A program made the position numbers and the translations under genes. Positions 54,404-64,000 of a DNA stretch of 64,000 nucleotides are shown here, one piece after another. Position 1 is the first letter of the stretch, and each line of letters starts with the position of its first letter. The stretch is from assembly GCF_008365315.1 (NCBI RefSeq), contig NZ_CP043506.1, forward strand, positions 1,842,001 to 1,906,000, read 5' to 3'. This stretch comes from Acetobacter vaccinii. Its GTDB lineage: Bacteria > Pseudomonadota > Alphaproteobacteria > Acetobacterales > Acetobacteraceae. The notes below the pieces were generated by a model. That model was not told where the DNA came from. It worked only from the letters and a program-made list of their open reading frames with translations, and searched no databases.

Positions 54404-55099
54404 TTAGTGGCTGCTTTTTGTGGGTGTTTTGCCGCTTTGCGGTAAGGCAGATTCAGCAAAATTTTCTGAGACAAACACCAGGCTATCTGGGATTTGGTCA
54501 AGGGCTGCAATTGCCTCAGCAGTCTGCTTGCCTTCGGTAAAGACTGTTGCCCGGTTGACCGCACCCTGTGTCTGGGCCAACGGAGCCAGTGCAATAATGA
54601 AGTCAGCATCTGCGCCGACAAGCTGTAGTGTTTGCGCGGCTTTGTCTGGCTGGCCTGCGTTAAGTTGCCCATTTGCGGTGGCAACGGCTGCTTTTTTTTC
54701 TGGTGAGAAGGTTTCGGTGGCAATAAATTCACCACCAACAGGAACCCACGTTGTCGTCCCTGTCAGCGGCGTGTGAGACGGAGAAACAGGGCGCTGCGGT
54801 GCGGGTTGAAGCTGGTTTTCGGCTGCATCAAACTTTGTGGCTGCTTTGCTTGCGGCAACCAGGCGTTTTTGTGCGTCATAGAGGAAAGGGATTGCAGCTT
54901 CGGTATTGCCTGCGGCAAGTGCTTTGCGTGCCTGAATAATATCGACCAGAGCATGTTGGCCATCTTCAGAGAGATGATGGAAGGCCCTGCCAGCTTTAAA
55001 CTGCTCCCATTTGGTATGAACGCTGCTTGCGTAGGTTGTCATTGGTGCTGCTGTCAGAATTGCCAGTGTTGCCAGGGACAATTTAGCTTTAAAACGCAT
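54404..55099 (-). CDS. YfdX-family secreted protein
   Basis: A 231-residue periplasmic protein of the YfdX family, which in enterobacteria is linked to acid stress and multidrug-response regulons; biochemical function is not settled. The signal peptide is AKLSLATLAILTAAPMTTYA. Family features are HLSEDGQHALVDIIQARKALAAGNTEAAIPFL, WVPVGGEFIATETFSPEKKAAVATANGQLNAGQPDKAAQTLQL (here as separate short motifs) and the C-terminal EAIAALDQIPDSLVF. The upstream 262 bp are AT-rich. It is transcribed alone, with the AraC-type gene upstream on the same strand. Confidence 0.82.
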   Translation of the reverse strand: MRFKAKLSLATLAILTAAPMTTYASSVHTKWEQFKAGRAFHHLSEDGQHALVDIIQARKALAAGNTEAAIPFLYDAQKRLVAASKAATKFDAAENQLQPAPQRPVSPSHTPLTGTTTWVPVGGEFIATETFSPEKKAAVATANGQLNAGQPDKAAQTLQLVGADADFIIALAPLAQTQGAVNRATVFTEGKQTAEAIAALDQIPDSLVFVSENFAESALPQSGKTPTKSSH

Positions 55100-55361
55100 T
55101 ATAACGCTCCGGTTTCTAAATTTTTAAGTCAATGTTACGAATATCTTTTTTTGACTAATATCGAGTATAAAATGGCCTTCTTTGTCAGGCAATTCTGAAG
55201 CTGGGTTTTGAAATTAAATTTAGGAATATTTTCCTTAATATATGCTTATTTATTATATTATCTATAATTTCTCTTTTTAAATTCACTCTGTGCGTGATGA
55301 AGAAATTTCAGATAATAAATGCATTATGGTGACCGTGGATGTTCGGTATTTTATGCACCCT

Positions 55362-56276
55362 TTAACGCTTTCTATAAGCGCGCGGGCTTATGCCCTTTGT
55401 TTTGCGAAAAACCTGCGAAAAGTGACTCGAGCTTTCATAGCCTACAGACAAGGCTATTTCGAGAATAGACATATCAGTTTGTCGGAGTTGCGTTGCTGCC
55501 AACTCAATCCGGCGTTGTATGAACCAGTGTGAGGGGCTGTGCCCCATAGTATGATGGAAAGAGCGGCTGAAATGAAAGCGGCTCATTCCACACAGACTGG
55601 CTAAAATATTTAAATTAAAAGGCTCTGTAAGATGTGTCTCGATATGGTCGAGTGCTTTGCGGAGTTTCCATTCTGGTAAATGCATTGTGGCTTTGTATGG
55701 GATGGAGTCCGTCTTTGTATAAGAGCGTAGAAGGTGGATAGTCAGGCTTTCCAGAAGCCCTTTTACAAATACAATATTAGCCGGTTCCGGAGATTGTATT
55801 TCAGTTGTCAGACCACCGAGAACTCCTGATATCAATGGGTCTTGTGCACCAGAGATGTCGCGCATGCGACAGCGGTTCGGATTAAGCCCCAAAGAACGGG
55901 CTGTCCGATTGATCAGGTCAGGACCAAGGTAGAGATGGAGGACTTCAAACGGATATTCTGTCGTGGGTCTCCAGCGCATCAGATAGGGGGCTTCCGTTTG
56001 AGTGAGAAAAAATGATCCAGGGGATGCTTCACTTCGCTCCCATGCTCCTGCCGTTTCCCGTTCTTCGATGATGGCCTCTCCAGATATAACCCATACCAGA
56101 AGCGGGTCTGATACGGCTGGAACAAGAATCTCCTCTTCCTGAAGAGCACGAGAAAAAATCTGTGCTTGTGCATCATTCCAGGCATCACCTGTGGCCTGAA
56201 TGATTTTTTGGCCAGGAAGATACTGTTCCAGTGCCGAACTTGCAGTTTGTAAGGGTGGACGATGCAGGAGAGGCAT
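55362..56276 (-). CDS. AraC-family transcriptional regulator
   Basis: A 304-residue regulator. The N-terminal half (to about residue 200) is a cupin-like sensor with ISGEAIIEERE and PYLMRWRPTTEYPFEVLHLYLG. The C-terminal 100 residues hold two helix-turn-helix motifs: LNILASLCGMSRFHFSRSFHHTMG and ILEIALSVGYESSSHFSQVFRKTKGISPRAYR. It is divergent from the short-chain dehydrogenase at 56424, with 147 bp between them, so it probably controls that gene and itself. The ligand is unknown. Confidence 0.9.
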   Translation of the reverse strand: MPLLHRPPLQTASSALEQYLPGQKIIQATGDAWNDAQAQIFSRALQEEEILVPAVSDPLLVWVISGEAIIEERETAGAWERSEASPGSFFLTQTEAPYLMRWRPTTEYPFEVLHLYLGPDLINRTARSLGLNPNRCRMRDISGAQDPLISGVLGGLTTEIQSPEPANIVFVKGLLESLTIHLLRSYTKTDSIPYKATMHLPEWKLRKALDHIETHLTEPFNLNILASLCGMSRFHFSRSFHHTMGHSPSHWFIQRRIELAATQLRQTDMSILEIALSVGYESSSHFSQVFRKTKGISPRAYRKR

Positions 56277-56309
56277 CTGGTTTGGCCTTGTGGTTGATAA
56301 ACCCGTTCA

Positions 56310-56338
56310 GTTTTAGAGCAAACTTACAATGGTTTTAG
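56310..56338. promoter_or_regulatory. Direct repeats GTTTTAG in AraC/dehydrogenase intergenic region
   Basis: GTTTTAG occurs at 56310-56316 and 56332-56338, 22 bp apart, about two helical turns, as expected for tandem AraC-type half sites. Function is inference. Confidence 0.35.
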
Positions 56339-56379
56339 CAAGAGCTCTAACGCACGTGATTTTTGTATACGCTAAATAT

Positions 56380-56421
56380 TTTTCCTCAAACTTCCAGTTT
56401 TTAAAAAAATATTGAGGAAAA
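56380..56421 (+). repeat. Inverted repeat enclosing the dehydrogenase ribosome-binding site
   Basis: TTTTCCTCAA (56380-56389) is the exact reverse complement of TTGAGGAAAA (56412-56421), with a 22-base AT-rich loop. The second arm is the ribosome-binding sequence (GAGGA) of the gene starting at 56424. In mRNA the stem would hide it; in DNA it could be an operator. Confidence 0.6.
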
Positions 56422-56423
56422 CT

Positions 56424-57170
56424 ATGACTCTTGCAGGGAAAGTGGCTCTTGTAACAGGGGCTTCCAGCGGTATCGGGGCAGCAACGGCACGCAAGCTTGC
56501 ATTGGAAGGGATGATCGTTGGATTAGCGGCCCGACGTGTAGACCGTCTGGAAGAACTTGTGGCAGATATTACGACAACGGGAGGGAAAGTCATTGCCCTG
56601 CCAACAGATGTTGTTGACCCAGCATCCTGCAAGACAGCGGTTGGGACGCTAATCCATCACTTTGGGCAGGTGGATGTTCTGGTCAACAATGCGGGGCTTA
56701 TGCCGCTGTCAAACGTTGATAGTTTGAAAGTGGATGAATGGCAGCGGATGGTGGATGTCAACATCTCGGGTGTGTTGAATGCGACAGCAGCGGTGCTTCC
56801 GCATATGATGGCGCAACAGTCAGGGCATATTTTCAATATGTCCTCGATAGCGGGAAGAAAAGTTTTTACAGGTCTTGCAGTTTACTGTGCCACCAAGGCG
56901 GCTGTTGCAGCATTTTCGGATGGGCTGCGTATGGAAATTGGTCCCAAGCATAATATTCGTGTCACATGCATTCAGCCTGGGGCGGTCAAATCGGAACTCT
57001 ATGAACAGATCACGGATATTGAGTATCGCAAACAGATGGATGATCTAGCTGCATCGATGACGTTTTTAGAGGGAGAGGATATCGCTGAGAGTATTCTGTT
57101 TGCTCTTAAAGCACCTGAGCGGATGGATGTAGCTGAACTGTTCGTGCTGCCCACAGAGCAAGGCTGGTAA
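56424..57170 (+). CDS. Short-chain dehydrogenase/reductase
   Basis: A 248-residue classical SDR oxidoreductase. The Rossmann motif TGASSGIG is at residues 11-18, Arg37-Arg38 after strand 2 suggest NADP preference, NNAG is at 88-91, and the catalytic Ser140/141, Tyr154 and Lys158 are present (YCATK). The family includes YdfG-like NADP-dependent serine/hydroxy-acid dehydrogenases, but the substrate is not evident. ATG 56424 is chosen because GAGGA lies 6 bases before it; the frame opens with TTG 56412 inside that sequence. It is divergent from the AraC regulator. Confidence 0.92.
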
Positions 57171-57222
57171 ATGACCGGGATACTGGGTTTTTCTGCTGAA
57201 AAATATATTACGACAGTGGCGC

Positions 57223-58116
57223 TTATGGCGGAAAGGCGCGTTGGACCTCGGTGACGAACATTCTCAGCTTAGGCGTCATGATCGGGCCTGCATTGTAAAG
57301 GAGATGCATGGGGCGGTTAGCTATTGTCCACTCAGGTAAAACACGGACAAGGTTTTGCTTCTCCATGTCGGGCTGCAAGGCTTGCGCATATCCAAGGAGA
57401 ATACCCTCTCCCGCGAGAGCCGCAGACTGAAGGATACTGGAATCATTACAACGAAGCTTGCCAGAAATGGTGATGGATCGTTTAGAGCTTCCGCGGGAAA
57501 GTGCCCATGACGTTGCTGCTCCGGCTGCGTTTTCGTAAACAAGGCATTGGTGGTTGCTCAGGTCTTCAGGCATCATTGGGGTGCCGTATTTTGCAAGATA
57601 GGCCGGAGCAGCACATAGAATACGGTGATAGGCCGTAAGTGGGCGGCTGATGACTGTCAGGTCGGTATCCAGCGTGCCAATACGGATGACAGCCTCGTAG
57701 CCATCCATGGTTGGGTGCACCAGTTGGTCGGTAAGTGAAAGCTGGATGTGTATCTCAGGATATTTCTTTTGAAAGTTGCTGAGGAAAGGGGCAAACACTG
57801 TGCGACCAAACGTGACTGGGGCACTGACTGAGAGTGTCCCGCGCGGGGTGCCGAGCGTATCGGCTGCCAGGCTGTCTGCCCGTTCGGCAGCGTTTAACAC
57901 AAGATGGCACTGTTCGCAGTAGAGGCGGCCTATGTCTGTCAGGCTTTGCCGACGCGTAGTCCTATGTAGCAGGCGTGTGCCAAGGTGATGTTCCAGGGCT
58001 TCTATGTGCTTTGCAACCATCTGAGGAGATAATGCCAGAAACTGCGCAGCGGCAGCGAAAGAACCCAACTCCACCACCTTGATAAAAACTTTCATGCTGG
58101 TCAGACGGTCGAGCAT
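57223..58116 (-). CDS. LysR-family transcriptional regulator
   Basis: A 297-residue regulator: N-terminal winged helix (MKVFIKVVELGSFAAAAQFL, SPQMVAKHIEALEHHLGTRLLHRTTRR) and a periplasmic-binding-fold effector domain (TLSVSAPVTFGRTVFAPFL, LPEWTIANRPMHLLY). It is convergent with the dehydrogenase and divergent from the YciI/metallo-hydrolase pair, the likely targets. A palindrome lies in the divergent region. Confidence 0.92.
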   Translation of the reverse strand: MLDRLTSMKVFIKVVELGSFAAAAQFLALSPQMVAKHIEALEHHLGTRLLHRTTRRQSLTDIGRLYCEQCHLVLNAAERADSLAADTLGTPRGTLSVSAPVTFGRTVFAPFLSNFQKKYPEIHIQLSLTDQLVHPTMDGYEAVIRIGTLDTDLTVISRPLTAYHRILCAAPAYLAKYGTPMMPEDLSNHQCLVYENAAGAATSWALSRGSSKRSITISGKLRCNDSSILQSAALAGEGILLGYAQALQPDMEKQNLVRVLPEWTIANRPMHLLYNAGPIMTPKLRMFVTEVQRAFPP

Positions 58117-58149
58117 TCATCACCCTAAGTTGTGACTGATGTGGTTTTT

Positions 58150-58166
58150 TGAGGATTTATATCTCA
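58150..58166. promoter_or_regulatory. Candidate LysR operator
   Basis: TGAG (58150-58153) and CTCA (58163-58166) form an inverted repeat enclosing GAT-N4-ATC (58154-58163), within the 118 bp between lysR and the YciI gene. It fits the loose LysR dyad pattern; no binding is shown. Confidence 0.35.
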
Positions 58167-58234
58167 GGCAGGGTGAATATGCTTGAGTTTTCCAAGGAAG
58201 AGCAAGCACGCTTTTCTGCCCGGAGGATTGCAAC

Positions 58235-58567
58235 ATGCCTGTTTATCTTGTTCGTATGGATCACCCGGATGGGGCAGGGTGGGGGGAGCACGTTAGAGCG
58301 CATATTCTGTATCTCCAGCGGTTGATACAGGAAGGGAAGCTTCTGGCCTCTGGCCCGTTGAGAAACACACCGTTGCGATCGGGTTTTCTGATCATGAAGG
58401 GAGATACCATGCAGCAGATTGAAGAGATGGTTGCAAATGACCCTTTTGCCGTGCAGGGGTTGATTTGTGCATTACGGATTGAGGAATGGGACCCTCTGTT
58501 CGGCTGTCTGTCAGACCACGCAACAGGGGAGCTGCCGCCGGAACTGGCCGCTGGTGTCTCATTATGA
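58235..58567 (+). CDS. YciI-like protein
   Basis: A 110-residue ferredoxin-like alpha/beta-fold protein of the YciI family, small proteins sometimes acting as hydrolases or as fusion domains. Family features are YLVRMDHP, the His of RAHILYLQRLIQEGKLLASGPL, and VANDPFAVQGL. GGAGG lies 8 bases before ATG 58235. The stop overlaps the start of the metallo-hydrolase as ATGA, so the two are translated together. Confidence 0.85.
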   Translation: MPVYLVRMDHPDGAGWGEHVRAHILYLQRLIQEGKLLASGPLRNTPLRSGFLIMKGDTMQQIEEMVANDPFAVQGLICALRIEEWDPLFGCLSDHATGELPPELAAGVSL

Positions 58568-59451
58568 CAGCGGGGCAATGGCATGCGGTGGGGGCTGCGC
58601 GGGTTACCAAAATTCAGGACACAGTGCTGGCTGTCCTGACCCCGGAGCAATTATTGCCAGAGTGGGATAGCAGTCGTGCCGTGCAATGCTATCCACAATA
58701 CAATGAAGTATTGGATATAACGCAAACAAAAGTGCCCTTGAGCATTCATGCCTGGTTGATAGAAGATCGTGGTCGAAAGATCCTTGTTGATACTGGTGTA
58801 GGGAACGACAAGCCACGCCCGGCGGCACCCCATTTTGACCATCTGCACACTGGCTGGCTGAACAACCTGAGGCAGGCTGGTATTCAGCCTGAAGAGATCG
58901 ACTTTGTGCTTCTGACACATCTACATGTTGATCATGTTGGCTGGAATACGCGTAAGGAAAATGATCGTTGGGTGCCAACTTTTCCCAATGCACGATATCT
59001 CTTCTCTAAGGAGGAATATCAGTTTTTTAAAGATCCGGCGAACAATAACGGTCGTAATCAGACCAGTTTTATAACGCGAGAAGATAGCATAGATCCGATT
59101 GTTGCCTGTGGCCTTGCCGACCAGATTGATGTGAGTGGAGAGGAGGTTTTGGAAGGAGTGTCTTTTCACTCAACACCAGGCCATACAGCCCATCATGCGT
59201 CTATCGTTCTGCGGTCTGGGGCGGAGCATCTGCTTTTTACGGGGGATGTCATGCACCATCCCGTTCAAGTGAGCCAACCAGGTTGGAATGCAGTGTTTGA
59301 TGCAAACCCGCAATTGGCTATGGCCTCCCGTCAGTGGGCTTTGGAGTATGCCGCCAGACATGATGCGACCGTATTCACGTCCCATTTTCCGCTAACGTCA
59401 GTGGGTAGGGTTGAAAAAGACCATGAGACTTACAGATGGTCTTTTCTATAA
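58564..59451 (+). CDS. Metallo-beta-lactamase-fold hydrolase
   Basis: A 295-residue hydrolase of the lactonase-like MBL group. The zinc-binding motif is His119-x-His121-x-Asp123-His124 (THLHVDHVGW); further ligands lie in TPGHTAHHAS and LLFTGDVMHHP. No signal peptide. ATG 58564 overlaps the YciI stop; the open frame starts at 58486 but that part covers YciI. The nearest known activities are lactone or aryl-ester hydrolysis, which cannot be assigned from sequence. Confidence 0.88.
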   Translation: MTAGQWHAVGAARVTKIQDTVLAVLTPEQLLPEWDSSRAVQCYPQYNEVLDITQTKVPLSIHAWLIEDRGRKILVDTGVGNDKPRPAAPHFDHLHTGWLNNLRQAGIQPEEIDFVLLTHLHVDHVGWNTRKENDRWVPTFPNARYLFSKEEYQFFKDPANNNGRNQTSFITREDSIDPIVACGLADQIDVSGEEVLEGVSFHSTPGHTAHHASIVLRSGAEHLLFTGDVMHHPVQVSQPGWNAVFDANPQLAMASRQWALEYAARHDATVFTSHFPLTSVGRVEKDHETYRWSFL

Positions 59452-59530
59452 ACAGTTTTTGGGAAAAATAGGATAGTAAGGGGGGGTAATGGAGCATATT
59501 TACCATCCTGTTTGGTTGTTTTGATAGTGT

Positions 59531-60778
59531 TCAAGCCTTGTTTGACGGCAGATATTTTAGAACACAGGTATTGATGAATGGGAGAATGGCTAACGTTATA
59601 AAGGACGATATTGCGGCTATGAGAAAAACCTTATCGTACCCTATTTTCCCGGCCAGAAAAGCCCCTGTTCCTCCAAGTAAAGCGGCTGTTATGGCACTTG
59701 CACTTTGAAAAAGTGAGAAGTCTATGCCGGGTTGATGTGTGGCGGTAAAGGCCATCAACCGGGAGTAGCTGGCAACAAAGCTGGCTGCCATTAGGGCGGC
59801 TTCAATAATGAAGAGGCAAAGAAAAACAGGTAAAAGCAGGGCATGAAGCATCAGTGATAATAAAAGTGCTGACAGGACAATGATGTGACAGGTGGCAAGT
59901 ACATACATGGCGTTTTTGGCACCTGCCTGACGTACAAGGCGGCCCCCCGCGACCGTGCCGCAAAGCCCTGCAATAACACCGCCACTGCCGTTAAACAGAC
60001 CGACGATACTCAGGGACACCCCATGATCAACTAAAAAAGGTCCAGTCAGTCCTTGCACCAGACGGCCGCTCATCTCGTAGGTTATTGTTAAGGCAATCCC
60101 ACACCATATTTCGCCTCTCTTGAAAGAATTCAGGATATTCGGACGTATTGTTTTTGAAAATGGAAAGACTTTTTCATTATCGCCATGGTGACCAAAAAAC
60201 ATTGGAATAGTCAAAAATACTATCAGGAAAGCCATAATAAAGCAGTCCAGATGCCACCCGACCTTTGCAAAGAGACTTGTAAAAAGGCTTCCACCAATAA
60301 CAAGGCCGAGATAAGCACCGCCGACCTGTGCCATGTTACCTTTTTCACGCTGTGTTGCGGGAATGTGCTCAATCAAAAATGCATCGCAGGCAATATCCAC
60401 GACAGTTGCAAAAAAGGCTGCGCATAGAAGAAGAGCTAACAGGCCGGAGAGCAACTGAGGAGGCCAAAATGCAATCACACATAAAATGCTGGCAATAAAA
60501 AATTCACCTATCAGGATGATCTGGCACGAACGCCTGCGGCCACTGGTCGTAATACGCAGTCTTTCAACAGGTTGTGCCCACAGGAATTTGAAAGCCCACA
60601 CAAGCATAACCAAAGAGAGCAGAGCAATTTTTTCTAATGGGATATGCTGACTACGCAGAATGACGGGTAATCCCGCAAAGGTCAGTCCCCCCAGTGCCCC
60701 CTGTGCAATATAGATGCCCCAGATGGCAGCGAGAACTCCCGTGTTGAGGGGATTGTCTCTAACAGTATGGCTTGTCAT
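59531..60778 (-). CDS. MFS transporter, RhtX/FptX/YbtX-like (siderophore locus)
   Basis: A 415-residue inner-membrane MFS protein with about 12 helices. Short loops, AQGALGGLTFAGLPVILRSQHIPLEKIAL near the start and the length fit the RhtX/FptX/YbtX group associated with siderophore uptake. ATG 60778 overlaps the receptor stop as ATGA, so it is the last gene of the ABC-receptor-MFS operon. In that group the MFS protein helps import the siderophore or its iron; the exact role here is inference from context. Confidence 0.82.
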   Translation of the reverse strand: MTSHTVRDNPLNTGVLAAIWGIYIAQGALGGLTFAGLPVILRSQHIPLEKIALLSLVMLVWAFKFLWAQPVERLRITTSGRRRSCQIILIGEFFIASILCVIAFWPPQLLSGLLALLLCAAFFATVVDIACDAFLIEHIPATQREKGNMAQVGGAYLGLVIGGSLFTSLFAKVGWHLDCFIMAFLIVFLTIPMFFGHHGDNEKVFPFSKTIRPNILNSFKRGEIWCGIALTITYEMSGRLVQGLTGPFLVDHGVSLSIVGLFNGSGGVIAGLCGTVAGGRLVRQAGAKNAMYVLATCHIIVLSALLLSLMLHALLLPVFLCLFIIEAALMAASFVASYSRLMAFTATHQPGIDFSLFQSASAITAALLGGTGAFLAGKIGYDKVFLIAAISSFITLAILPFINTCVLKYLPSNKA

Positions 60779-62892
60779 TTTGGAGAATCACCAATAGCCA
60801 CTTTCAGGTTAAATCCAACTGTTCGTCCAAAGCTGATCTGTGCGACATTTCCAGCTGGGCCGGTAAAGGCATAGGTCCGGTAAAGCTTGTCGGTCACATT
60901 GTTGGCGTAGAGCATAACCTCGTAACGTGTGCCCAAGGTCCAGGTAGTTCTTAAATCGAGCTGCGCGTATGTCGGTTGTTTAAGCTGGTTTGTGATATCA
61001 AAATATTGAGGACCGGTTACGCGCAGGTCCAGCCCAGGTTCAATACGACCAAAGCCTGTCTGGAAACGGGCCGAGAGGTGTCCAGCCGCCATAAACTCAG
61101 GCACGTAAGGCATACGCAGGCCAGCGTAATTATTGCCCGCGCCATCGTTGAAACTATCAAATTTGGAGAGTGTTCGATTGCCGTCAGCACCAATGCTCCA
61201 TCCGGGCTTGAATTCCCACTGTATTTCTCCTTCCACACCACTTGCATGGGCCCGTGCGGCACTGGCAATGGTCTGGTAACCAGCAGGACCAACATAAACC
61301 TGCTCATTCTGGAGGTTATTGTAAAAATACCCTGCTCTTGCAAAAAAGTTTTTCTGTCTGTAAATGCTTCCGATTTCGTAGCTCAACTCTCGCTCCGGGT
61401 TGTAGGACGTGGCATCGGCAATGCTTGTCGGGGCGTAGTTAAATCCAGCGGGCTTGTAGCCTTGGCTGATGCGACCATGCAGATGCCAGCCCGGTAAAGC
61501 CTCATAATCAAGCGAGATATTGCCAAGGCTCATGTTCTGGTTACGGCTTTTGGCGCCTGTATACAGTGTTTGCCCCCCATAGGTGGAGTTGAACGCTATG
61601 CTGGCCATATCCCGCGACAGGCGCCCACCCATACCAAGGTCCAGATTTTTGAGGAGGTGCCAGTAAACATTGCCGTAAAGAGCAACAGTTTCTGAGCGAT
61701 TATGAGACGAGGTCAGAGGGTAGGGAATATAACTGGGCACATAAGCTGCCGTCTGGCTTGTGCGGTCCTGATAGGTTGTCTGGTGGTAAAAGCCAGTTAC
61801 GACATCATAAAAACGGTGCTTGCCTTCTGTGCCAAAGCGTAGCTCCTGAGTGTTGGCACTCCACTGTTCTGGTTGGGTTGAAATATAGGAATAGTAAGGA
61901 AAGGAACGGCTGATACTGCTGTCCTGCCATGAGGCAATGGCGGTCAGTTTCCAGCCATTAAAGTGGTAAAGACCACGCAGGGATTCATCGTGTCCACAAC
62001 GGCTCAGGCGTGGGTCCGGTGTGCCAGGCACGGCACTGGCAACTTGACGATTTTGAAGGTTGTTGAAGCCCACATAAACATCCTGGCTGCCATAGCTGCA
62101 TGCTCCATCAACGCTAAAAGACACCTCCCAGGGGTGGTCTGTCGGGGCAAGGCGCAGGGTAGCGCGCCCACCGCGGCTTTCAAAACCGCCAAGGTGTTTT
62201 GATCCAGTGGCTGGGTTGCTGATATTCCCTTGCTGGTCTTGAGATGTCAGGGCGATGGAGCCGTAAAGCCAGTCTTTGAGGATGGTACCATCGGCTGTGC
62301 CCGTCACATGGTAGCCATAGCGACTTTCTGCTCCTGCCTCGAATGAGGCATGAGGGCGTGCGCCGGGTTGGCGCGTTGTAATGTCGACCACACCGCCTTC
62401 GGCACTCTGCCCGTATAAAGCTGTTTGAGGGCCGCGTAAGAACTGCACGCTCTCGATATCCACAAGGGATTGCATGGCATTGATCGGCAGAACAGGAACA
62501 TCATCTATATAAAACGTCGTTGCCGGATGGTAGAGGTCCTGTGCTGAAGTAATGCCCCGTACCGTAATGGCGGGGAAGAGGAAACTGCCTGAATTTTGAA
62601 TTTGCAGTCCCGGCAGCACACGGCCCAGGTCATTGGTGTCACGCACCTGTTTCTGGCGCAATTGGCTACTGGTCACAAACTGGCCGCTGGTGCCTGTTTG
62701 ATCCAAGCGGCGGGGCTGACGGATACCGACCACATCCACGTGTTCTGGTGTTGATTTTGCGACAGTTTCCTTCTGTTTTGTAACTGTCGTTTCTGCATGA
62801 ACAGAACAGGAGACAAGAACACCCCCTGCCATAAGGCTTTTGCAAAGAGTGTGATGCCACCGTGCTGATGTATGATGTGTATGGTAAGGCAT
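60775..62892 (-). CDS. TonB-dependent siderophore receptor, FyuA-like
   Basis: A 705-residue outer-membrane receptor. A signal peptide (ending VHA) precedes a plug domain (GRVLPGLQIQNSGSFLFPAI, ITVRGITSAQDLYHPATTFY, LRGPQTALYGQSAEGG) and a 22-strand barrel ending in an aromatic-rich strand (GRTVGFNLKVAIG). From the plug to the C-terminus the sequence follows yersiniabactin receptor FyuA as I recall it: NPATGS, LRLAPTDHPWEVSF, SQDVYVGFNNL, CG-containing loop, TQELR, SQGYKPAGFNYAP, NNVTDKLYRTY. ATG 62892 is preferred over GTG 62907. It is in one operon with the ABC protein and MFS protein. The natural siderophore is unknown. Confidence 0.88.
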   Translation of the reverse strand: MPYHTHHTSARWHHTLCKSLMAGGVLVSCSVHAETTVTKQKETVAKSTPEHVDVVGIRQPRRLDQTGTSGQFVTSSQLRQKQVRDTNDLGRVLPGLQIQNSGSFLFPAITVRGITSAQDLYHPATTFYIDDVPVLPINAMQSLVDIESVQFLRGPQTALYGQSAEGGVVDITTRQPGARPHASFEAGAESRYGYHVTGTADGTILKDWLYGSIALTSQDQQGNISNPATGSKHLGGFESRGGRATLRLAPTDHPWEVSFSVDGACSYGSQDVYVGFNNLQNRQVASAVPGTPDPRLSRCGHDESLRGLYHFNGWKLTAIASWQDSSISRSFPYYSYISTQPEQWSANTQELRFGTEGKHRFYDVVTGFYHQTTYQDRTSQTAAYVPSYIPYPLTSSHNRSETVALYGNVYWHLLKNLDLGMGGRLSRDMASIAFNSTYGGQTLYTGAKSRNQNMSLGNISLDYEALPGWHLHGRISQGYKPAGFNYAPTSIADATSYNPERELSYEIGSIYRQKNFFARAGYFYNNLQNEQVYVGPAGYQTIASAARAHASGVEGEIQWEFKPGWSIGADGNRTLSKFDSFNDGAGNNYAGLRMPYVPEFMAAGHLSARFQTGFGRIEPGLDLRVTGPQYFDITNQLKQPTYAQLDLRTTWTLGTRYEVMLYANNVTDKLYRTYAFTGPAGNVAQISFGRTVGFNLKVAIGDSPK

Positions 62893-62918
62893 GTCTGGTT
62901 GTTCCACGCAAATAGGGT

Positions 62919-64000
62919 TCAGTTCAGTGGGGCATCGGGGGTTGTCCAGCAGCGTGGCTGCTGTTGAGCGTGCCAGAGCCGGGCATAGGTGTTGGCAGAC
63001 GCCATAAGAGTGTCATGGGGGCCGCGCTCTATAATGCGGCCGTTGTCCATGACCCAGATTTCGTCAACGTCCTGTGCGATCCACAGACGGTGGGCTATTG
63101 TCAGAAGTGTGCGGTCAGGTCCGATATGGTGCAGCGTGCTGCGGATAGCGGCTTCGCTATGTGTATCAAGCTGGGAGGTTGCCTCATCCATCACCACGAT
63201 TGGGGTGTTCATGAGTAGGGCACGTGCAATAGCCAGGCGCTGTTTTTCACCTCCTGAGAGAGTGCTTGCGGCCACCTGAATGTCTGTCATCAGGCCATTG
63301 GGCAGACGTTGGGTAAACGCGTGAGCCTCGGCCTGTTTTAGAGCAGACAGAACCTCAGCATCAGTGGCATCTGGTCGGCCGAGGCGGATATTATCTGCCA
63401 GCGTGCCTTCAAAGAGGTGCACATCCTGCGGCACCAGCGTCATAATATTGCTGAGCGTGTCGTGATGCATGTTGCGCAGGTTAATGCCGCCGATTGTGAC
63501 AGCCCCGGCACCAACATCCTGCAGGCGAAGAGCTAGATGGGCGAGCGTTGTTTTGCCAGAGCCTGAGACACCAACAAGGGCGATTTTTCTGCCTTGTCGT
63601 ATGGTCGCGTCAATGGCTGCAAGGCCGCCGTGCATGGGGTATTCTGCATCAAATGTTGCAGATACATTTGAAAACCTGATTTCAAAGTCATCAGGTTTTG
63701 ATGCGTGCTTGGGGTCCTCTAGAGTGGGCCGCGCCATAATCTGGCTTATACGTTGGAGCGTATTTCTGGCAAAGCGCAGGCCTGCAATCTGGCCTGCCAG
63801 ATCGGTGATGCATCGGCTGAAGCGATAGGCCAGAATAAGAGCAGCAAAAGCAGACCCTACGGAAATGTCCTGTTTCTGGAAGCCCAGAACAATAACGAGA
63901 ATAGCCAGTGCCATGCCAGTCTGCGCGGCAAGGGCGTAGCCTATAATGGCGGGAGCAGGAGCGACTTCCAGCGCCATTTGTGCGGCTTTTAACTGGTGGG
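62919..64000 (-). CDS. Exporter-fold ABC transporter (permease-ATPase fusion), C-terminal part; 5' end outside window
   Basis: The open frame runs off the right edge, so only the last 360 residues or so are seen: the end of a transmembrane domain (AQTGMALAILVIVLGF, FAALILAYRFSRCITDLAG) and a complete nucleotide-binding domain with Walker A (GVSGSGKTTLA), Q-loop (LVPQDVHLFEGT), signature (LSGGEKQRLAIARAL), Walker B (VVMDEATSQLD) and H-loop (IAHRL). Fusion of membrane and ATPase domains in an exporter fold is the YbtP/YbtQ (and IrtAB) type that imports ferric siderophores. The receptor gene begins 26 bases after its stop. A second such gene is expected further right. Confidence 0.87.
   Translation of the reverse strand, partial: HQLKAAQMALEVAPAPAIIGYALAAQTGMALAILVIVLGFQKQDISVGSAFAALILAYRFSRCITDLAGQIAGLRFARNTLQRISQIMARPTLEDPKHASKPDDFEIRFSNVSATFDAEYPMHGGLAAIDATIRQGRKIALVGVSGSGKTTLAHLALRLQDVGAGAVTIGGINLRNMHHDTLSNIMTLVPQDVHLFEGTLADNIRLGRPDATDAEVLSALKQAEAHAFTQRLPNGLMTDIQVAASTLSGGEKQRLAIARALLMNTPIVVMDEATSQLDTHSEAAIRSTLHHIGPDRTLLTIAHRLWIAQDVDEIWVMDNGRIIERGPHDTLMASANTYARLWHAQQQPRCWTTPDAPLN

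Follow-up and report, generated by a model that had tools for sequence, protein, structure and literature searches.

Gene content and layout of the locus

The window analysed in this study is a stretch of 64 000 nucleotides from Acetobacter vaccinii (contig NZ_CP043506.1, positions 1 842 001 to 1 906 000), whose source assembly comprises 3.08 Mb in 3 contigs. At its right end, on the minus strand, genes for an MFS permease, a TonB-dependent receptor and an ABC transporter were all present where the first-pass annotation had placed them. Extending the analysis to the right of the window revealed that this trio belongs to a five-gene locus, consisting of the MFS gene, the receptor gene, two ABC genes (ABC2 and ABC1) and a divergent AraC-type gene. 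The features are listed below; adding 54 000 to an L009 position gives the extrapolated window position.

59531..60778, minus strand: MFS permease, YbtX/RhtX/FptX-like, 415 aa (TIGR02718, 150.5 bits; 33 % identity to YbtX and 41 % to the MFS protein of genome G046, described below)
60775..62907, minus strand: FyuA-type TonB-dependent outer-membrane receptor, 710 aa (PDB 4epa; plug and barrel; tree)
62919..64000, minus strand, cut by the window edge (full gene L009:8919-10676): ABC2, exporter-fold half-transporter, YbtQ side, 585 aa in full
L009:10673-12442, minus strand, outside the window: ABC1, YbtP side, 589 aa (list of open reading frames right of the window; tree)
L009:12507-12525, outside the window, between the AraC-type gene and ABC1: Fur-box-like site, 15/19 consensus match
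L009:12550-13542, plus strand, outside the window: AraC-type regulator, about 330 aa (PF12833, 86 bits)

The coordinates confirmed that the trio lies in one place with a 4-bp overlap, and direct reading of the sequence showed the overlap to be ATGA, which contains the stop codon of the receptor gene and the start codon of the MFS gene. The receptor start is GTG as called, and an ATG five codons inward is equally plausible. The first-pass annotation had proposed looking right of the window for a second ABC gene, and one was found there in ABC1, which overlaps ABC2 by 4 bp. Gene order and overlaps suggest that ABC1, ABC2 and the receptor gene form one transcription unit. Beyond the AraC-type gene lie MntR, the manganese transporter MntH and another TonB-dependent receptor gene. 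The five operon genes have a G+C content of 47–56 %, compared to 59.9 % for the window, and five genes measured just left of the operon gave 48–54 %; the right end of the window (about 55000–64000) is therefore a lower-G+C stretch as a whole.

A FyuA-type receptor

Against the PDB, the receptor scored 505 bits to FyuA (4epa, 'Pesticin receptor') and only 39 bits to the next distinct receptor, a gap that rules out chance resemblance; best matches to unrelated receptors, which would have told against the first-pass reading, did not occur. The alignment covers FyuA residues 66–703 and both PF07715 (plug) and PF00593 (barrel) scored above their cut-offs, bearing out the claim that the resemblance spans plug and barrel. 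Identity to E. coli FyuA was 39 % across 638 residues. The receptor fell under the cut-off of the general siderophore-receptor model TIGR01783 (173.9 vs 223.5 bits), a model to which FyuA scored 498 and the receptor of G046 scored 154.

Phylogenetic inference with 52 receptors grouped those of the window, A. senegalensis and G046 together (100/100), with enterobacterial FyuA as their sister clade (98/95), although the program flags long branches meeting at this point. The tree admitted only loci with an open frame meeting a length and score rule, and 7 loci were dropped by hand as near-duplicates (L037, L057, L060, L067, L069, L073 and L074). By its sequence the receptor is of the FyuA type and may bind ferric yersiniabactin, although the identity of the substrate does not follow from a resemblance of only 39 %.

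MFS permease, regulator and Fur-like site

The MFS protein scored 150.5 bits against TIGR02718, the RhtX/FptX model, which is under the cut-off of 356 bits but above the 123.2 bits of E. coli YbtX itself. Together with the 33 % identity to YbtX, this agrees with its initial description as YbtX-like. The AraC-type protein was 36 % identical to YbtA by BLAST, over 132 C-terminal residues only, and its gene, which encodes an AraC-type DNA-binding domain (PF12833), is divergent from the ABC genes, as expected of a YbtA counterpart. YbtA is described as needing a CXXC motif, C206–C209 (PMC8725597). This motif was sought in the AraC-type protein and found to be absent, and YbtA-like copper sensing through CXXC was rejected as a candidate.

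A Fur box to the right of the window had also been proposed for inspection, and a Fur-like site was indeed found between the AraC-type gene and ABC1. Scored against a Fur-box consensus, it is the only 15/19 match in 73.9 kb and the best there, and it is identical in A. senegalensis. Other 15/19 sites were found in G046, preceding the receptor gene and the Irp2-like gene, and within the E. coli island.

The ABC pair

Both ABC1 and ABC2 carry PF00664 and PF00005, and are fused transmembrane and ATPase half-transporters. The best single-domain PDB matches of ABC1 were IrtA and YbtP (199 bits each), and that of ABC2 was YbtQ (6p6i_B, 202 bits), with MsbA at 189 bits. By whole-protein score, eukaryotic ABCB exporters came first for both proteins, because the scores of two-domain chains add up. 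Identity to YbtP/Q was 27–30 % over most of the length and reached 40 % across one 278-residue stretch.

In a tree of 59 rows, ABC1 grouped on the side of YbtP (95/87) and ABC2 on that of YbtQ (95/92); each had a separate stem, 2.24 and 2.14 changes per site long, outside the core YbtP and YbtQ clades. ABC1 joined the row of G063, a placement flagged as a possible long-branch effect. Three rows were dropped before this tree was built, including the two CydDC-like proteins of the window organism itself, and nine loci were removed as near-duplicates. By placement the ABC pair is therefore of the YbtPQ kind, but not core YbtPQ, which refines the first-pass description as YbtP/Q-like. We also considered a close kinship with the ABC pair of G046, which neither the identities nor the tree supported.

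The placement bears on whether the ABC pair could be an exporter, of drugs or otherwise, that merely shares an operon with a siderophore receptor. The long stems, the identity of about 30 % to YbtP/Q and the exporters topping the whole-protein PDB list would fit such a role. However, the two proteins group with receptor-linked pairs, separate from E. coli MsbA, MdlA, MdlB, CydC and CydD (90/93), in a tree where exporters are thinly represented because the rows beyond these five all come from receptor-linked loci; they also divide between the YbtP and YbtQ sides, appear from order and overlaps to share a transcription unit with the receptor, and are kept beside it in A. senegalensis. We regard an exporter as improbable, and infer that ABC1/ABC2 probably works as an importer with an exporter fold, in the manner of YbtPQ.

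Search for biosynthesis genes

The earlier reading had allowed for a local siderophore product encoded right of the window. Within about 30 kb on that side the longest listed open frame was ≤771 aa, and therefore no frame is long enough for a multi-domain NRPS. Across the 3.08-Mb assembly the NRPS condensation family PF00668, the IucA/IucC family PF04183 and the Irp3-like family each gave 0 matches in searches where the positive controls matched. The idea of a local product was abandoned on these grounds, with local biosynthesis ruled out for the condensation and IucA/IucC families, while the observation that no biosynthesis genes accompany the uptake genes was extended, for these three families, to the whole assembly. 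Synthesis of the siderophore by the organism from genes at another locus is highly improbable, as these same null results oppose it and no supporting evidence was found. As a separate observation, 37 TonB receptor barrel matches were counted in this genome, which has neither a PF00668 nor a PF04183 match.

Distribution and conservation

All counts include the window's own genome. At E 1e-60, the receptor was found in 2 of the 49 Acetobacter genomes, in 3/299 genomes of the order sample and in 2/398 of the phylum sample, where the other one was 29 % identical. In the family sample it was found at E 1e-40 in 4/397 genomes, two of which had receptors only 29–30 % identical. ABC1 was matched (E 1e-70) in 2/397 family genomes, its own and G063 (32 %). 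Apart from A. senegalensis, no Acetobacteraceae were present among 55 receptor loci obtained from named genomes.

The second Acetobacter carrier was A. senegalensis (G796), with identities of 80 % for AraC, 72 % for ABC1, 71 % for ABC2 and 87 % for the receptor. The ABC pair adjoins the receptor in this species too, and the MFS gene had no match in its draft genome. NRPS condensation domains were found in A. senegalensis (6 matches), on contigs other than that of the uptake locus. Between the two species dN/dS was 0.035 for the receptor, 0.16 for ABC1 and 0.14 for ABC2, ratios that are rough because synonymous sites are near saturation, and was not computable for AraC; these values indicate that the receptor and ABC genes are under purifying selection. 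The operon is real, conserved and rare in Acetobacter.

The neighbouring manganese genes were seen in other settings. In the related genome G349, which has the second receptor as well as MntR and MntH, no operon gene was found within the 3.3 kb of contig before MntR. In A. senegalensis C76, about 12 kb away from the uptake operon, an additional MntH copy is split and adjoins a copy of the TonB receptor that comes next in the window organism (L128, 6635–9918); a full-length MntR–MntH pair lies on another contig.

A producer cluster in a related genus

The closest receptor relative within a biosynthetic cluster was found in G046, which represents another Acetobacteraceae genus and has a genome of 2.18 Mb in one contig:

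G046:C1, about 365.0–394.9 kb (L016, L129, L130): complete yersiniabactin-type cluster, in which EntC/EntB/EntA-like genes replace the salicylate synthase

Its receptor and MFS proteins (68 and 41 % identical to those of A. vaccinii, respectively) are encoded adjoining biosynthesis genes, whose products are 41–55 % identical to E. coli Irp2, Irp1, YbtU, YbtT and YbtE. The Irp2-like protein (2048 aa) has two condensation-type stretches, one AMP-binding and one methyltransferase stretch and two carrier stretches, and the Irp1-like protein (3172 aa) has ketosynthase, acyltransferase, methyltransferase, ketoreductase, condensation, carrier and thioesterase domains.

The precursor genes suggest a different cap. 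The chorismate enzyme of G046 was 37 % identical to EntC over 370 residues, compared to 26 % to YbtS over 203. The two precursor genes that follow encode proteins 52 % identical to EntB and 47 % to EntA; the combination of EntC and EntA has been used, in one paper, as a mark of 2,3-dihydroxybenzoate (DHB) (PMC12971057). The ligase was 55 % identical to YbtE and 42 % to EntE. Serine has been described at the first discriminating position of DHB ligases, and isoleucine at the second in the salicylate enzyme PchD (PMC9470617, PMC3672683), and the G046 ligase is mixed, with a DHB-like serine at the first such position and isoleucine at the second, as in PchD. Despite this mixed code, a DHB cap is favoured over salicylate because the EntC/B/A-like genes are present, and the product of G046 is predicted to be a DHB-capped (catechol) analogue of yersiniabactin rather than a salicylate-capped one. 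This qualifies the phenolate–thiazoline ligand that had been suggested for the Acetobacter receptor: the yersiniabactin-type character is retained, but the cluster holding the closest receptor points to a catechol variant and not to a plain phenolate.

An Irp3-like domain was present in 3/397 genomes of the family sample, namely G046, G126 and G063. G063 holds a more distant cluster. In G126, a genus mate of G046, the same cluster has decayed into many pieces and frames (C1, about 346–365 kb; L135, L136), with no Irp2-like or receptor match within the 59 kb read.

The G046 cluster also informs the question of whether family likeness misleads on the ligand, such that the receptor takes a different thiazoline/phenolate chelate (pyochelin-like) or a non-ferric metal complex. 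An identity of 39 % to FyuA leaves room for this, the ABC pair and the AraC-type protein differ from YbtPQ and YbtA, and the MntR/MntH pair adjoins the operon. Nevertheless, the closest receptor relative with a biosynthetic cluster sits in a cluster of the HMWP1/HMWP2 type that has full yersiniabactin length, and the site before the operon is Fur-like, and we consider a different ligand unlikely, if less so than an exporter role for the ABC pair.

Interpretation

Taken together, the evidence suggests, with a probability of roughly 80 %, that the locus is self-contained, probably repressed by iron, and serves the uptake of a foreign metal chelate of the yersiniabactin type, the substrate being inferred. 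This upholds the initial proposal of uptake of a foreign yersiniabactin-like siderophore without synthesis by the organism itself, to which our study adds the second ABC gene, the AraC-type gene and the Fur-like site. A. vaccinii probably lives on a neighbour's siderophore, since the regulator and transporters are present, the synthesis domains searched for are absent, and a relative in the family has a matching receptor beside apparent producer genes. The chelate taken up is possibly a catechol analogue of yersiniabactin.

In the proposed mechanism, TonB would power passage of the ferric chelate across the outer membrane by way of the FyuA-type receptor, and an ABC1/ABC2 heterodimer, with or without the YbtX-like MFS permease, would move it across the inner membrane, after which the metal would be released. 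The AraC-type protein would probably act as a sensor of the incoming chelate that switches the operon on, and Fur would switch the operon off when iron is plentiful.

A wider scenario can be put forward more tentatively, as one that we think could well prove wrong: acetic acid bacteria may trade a catechol-capped yersiniabactin analogue, which G046 would make from 2,3-dihydroxybenzoate on HMWP1/HMWP2-type enzymes, and for which a few Acetobacter species would keep only the receptor and importer, the ABC pair having diverged to suit the ligand.

Our findings describe a stand-alone yersiniabactin-type uptake set in acetic acid bacteria and tie it to a producer cluster in the same family that is complete and seems to be a catechol variant. 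A producer/taker pair outside any disease setting thereby becomes testable, and the pair offers a natural case for studying how changing the ligand is matched by a FyuA-type receptor and its importer. Narrow literature searches on yersiniabactin, siderophores or FyuA homologues in acetic acid bacteria, Acetobacter or Acetobacteraceae gave no paper dealing with such uptake, as judged by title and the start of the abstract.

Comparison with known systems

Yersiniabactin-type iron uptake is known mainly from enterobacterial pathogens. The E. coli high-pathogenicity island (FyuA, YbtP, YbtQ, YbtX and YbtA) has the same five kinds of gene, with 39 % identity for the receptor and 33 % for the MFS protein, a divergent AraC gene and a Fur-like site. 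In contrast to the island, the A. vaccinii genome lacks irp2/irp1-like condensation domains and the Irp3-like domain, its receptor gene stands in line with the ABC genes, its ABC pair occupies separate branches, and its AraC-type protein is without the CXXC of YbtA. Pyochelin uptake (FptA, FptX, PchHI and PchR) follows the same logic of receptor, MFS protein, ABC pair and AraC regulator, a likeness of gene kinds in which the sequence comparison is that with the RhtX/FptX model only.

Our scan of named genomes yielded 55 receptor loci, of which 5 with a receptor match of <400 bits were set aside and 50 kept. In fetched flanks of ≤10 kb, with thresholds of 150 bits for ybt biosynthesis, 230 for ABC, 100 for MFS and a loose 55 for AraC, a biosynthesis match was found in 11/50 loci and none in 39/50, more distant genes being missed at this flank length. 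ABC, MFS and AraC matches were all present in 20 of these 39, and the orphan uptake arrangement therefore recurs. Orphan loci with a FyuA-type receptor were seen in Burkholderiales, Pantoea and Marinobacter (for example L061, L075 and L022). They resemble the Acetobacter locus in having a receptor, AraC gene and ABC pair, with an MFS gene also in L061 and L075 and no ybt biosynthesis match in the fetched flanks; they differ in that their receptors fall in other clades and their closest ABC proteins are only about a third identical. Separately, Klebsiella indica (L074, 3688–11872) carries ybtX, ybtQ, ybtP, ybtA and fyuA together, 92–99 % identical to E. coli, with no irp2, irp1, ybtU, ybtT or ybtE match in the fetched flanks, and is seemingly a taker derived from the island. 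Bordetella petrii has been described as a likely 'cheater' that kept only the transporter genes beside an NRPS fragment (PMC12971057).

The G046 cluster shares with the Acetobacter locus its receptor, its MFS protein and the same 4-bp receptor/MFS overlap, and differs from it in having full biosynthesis, a different ABC pair and the EntC/B/A-like precursor genes. The orphan uptake arrangement is already known elsewhere, and this sister cluster is the more interesting part of the comparison.
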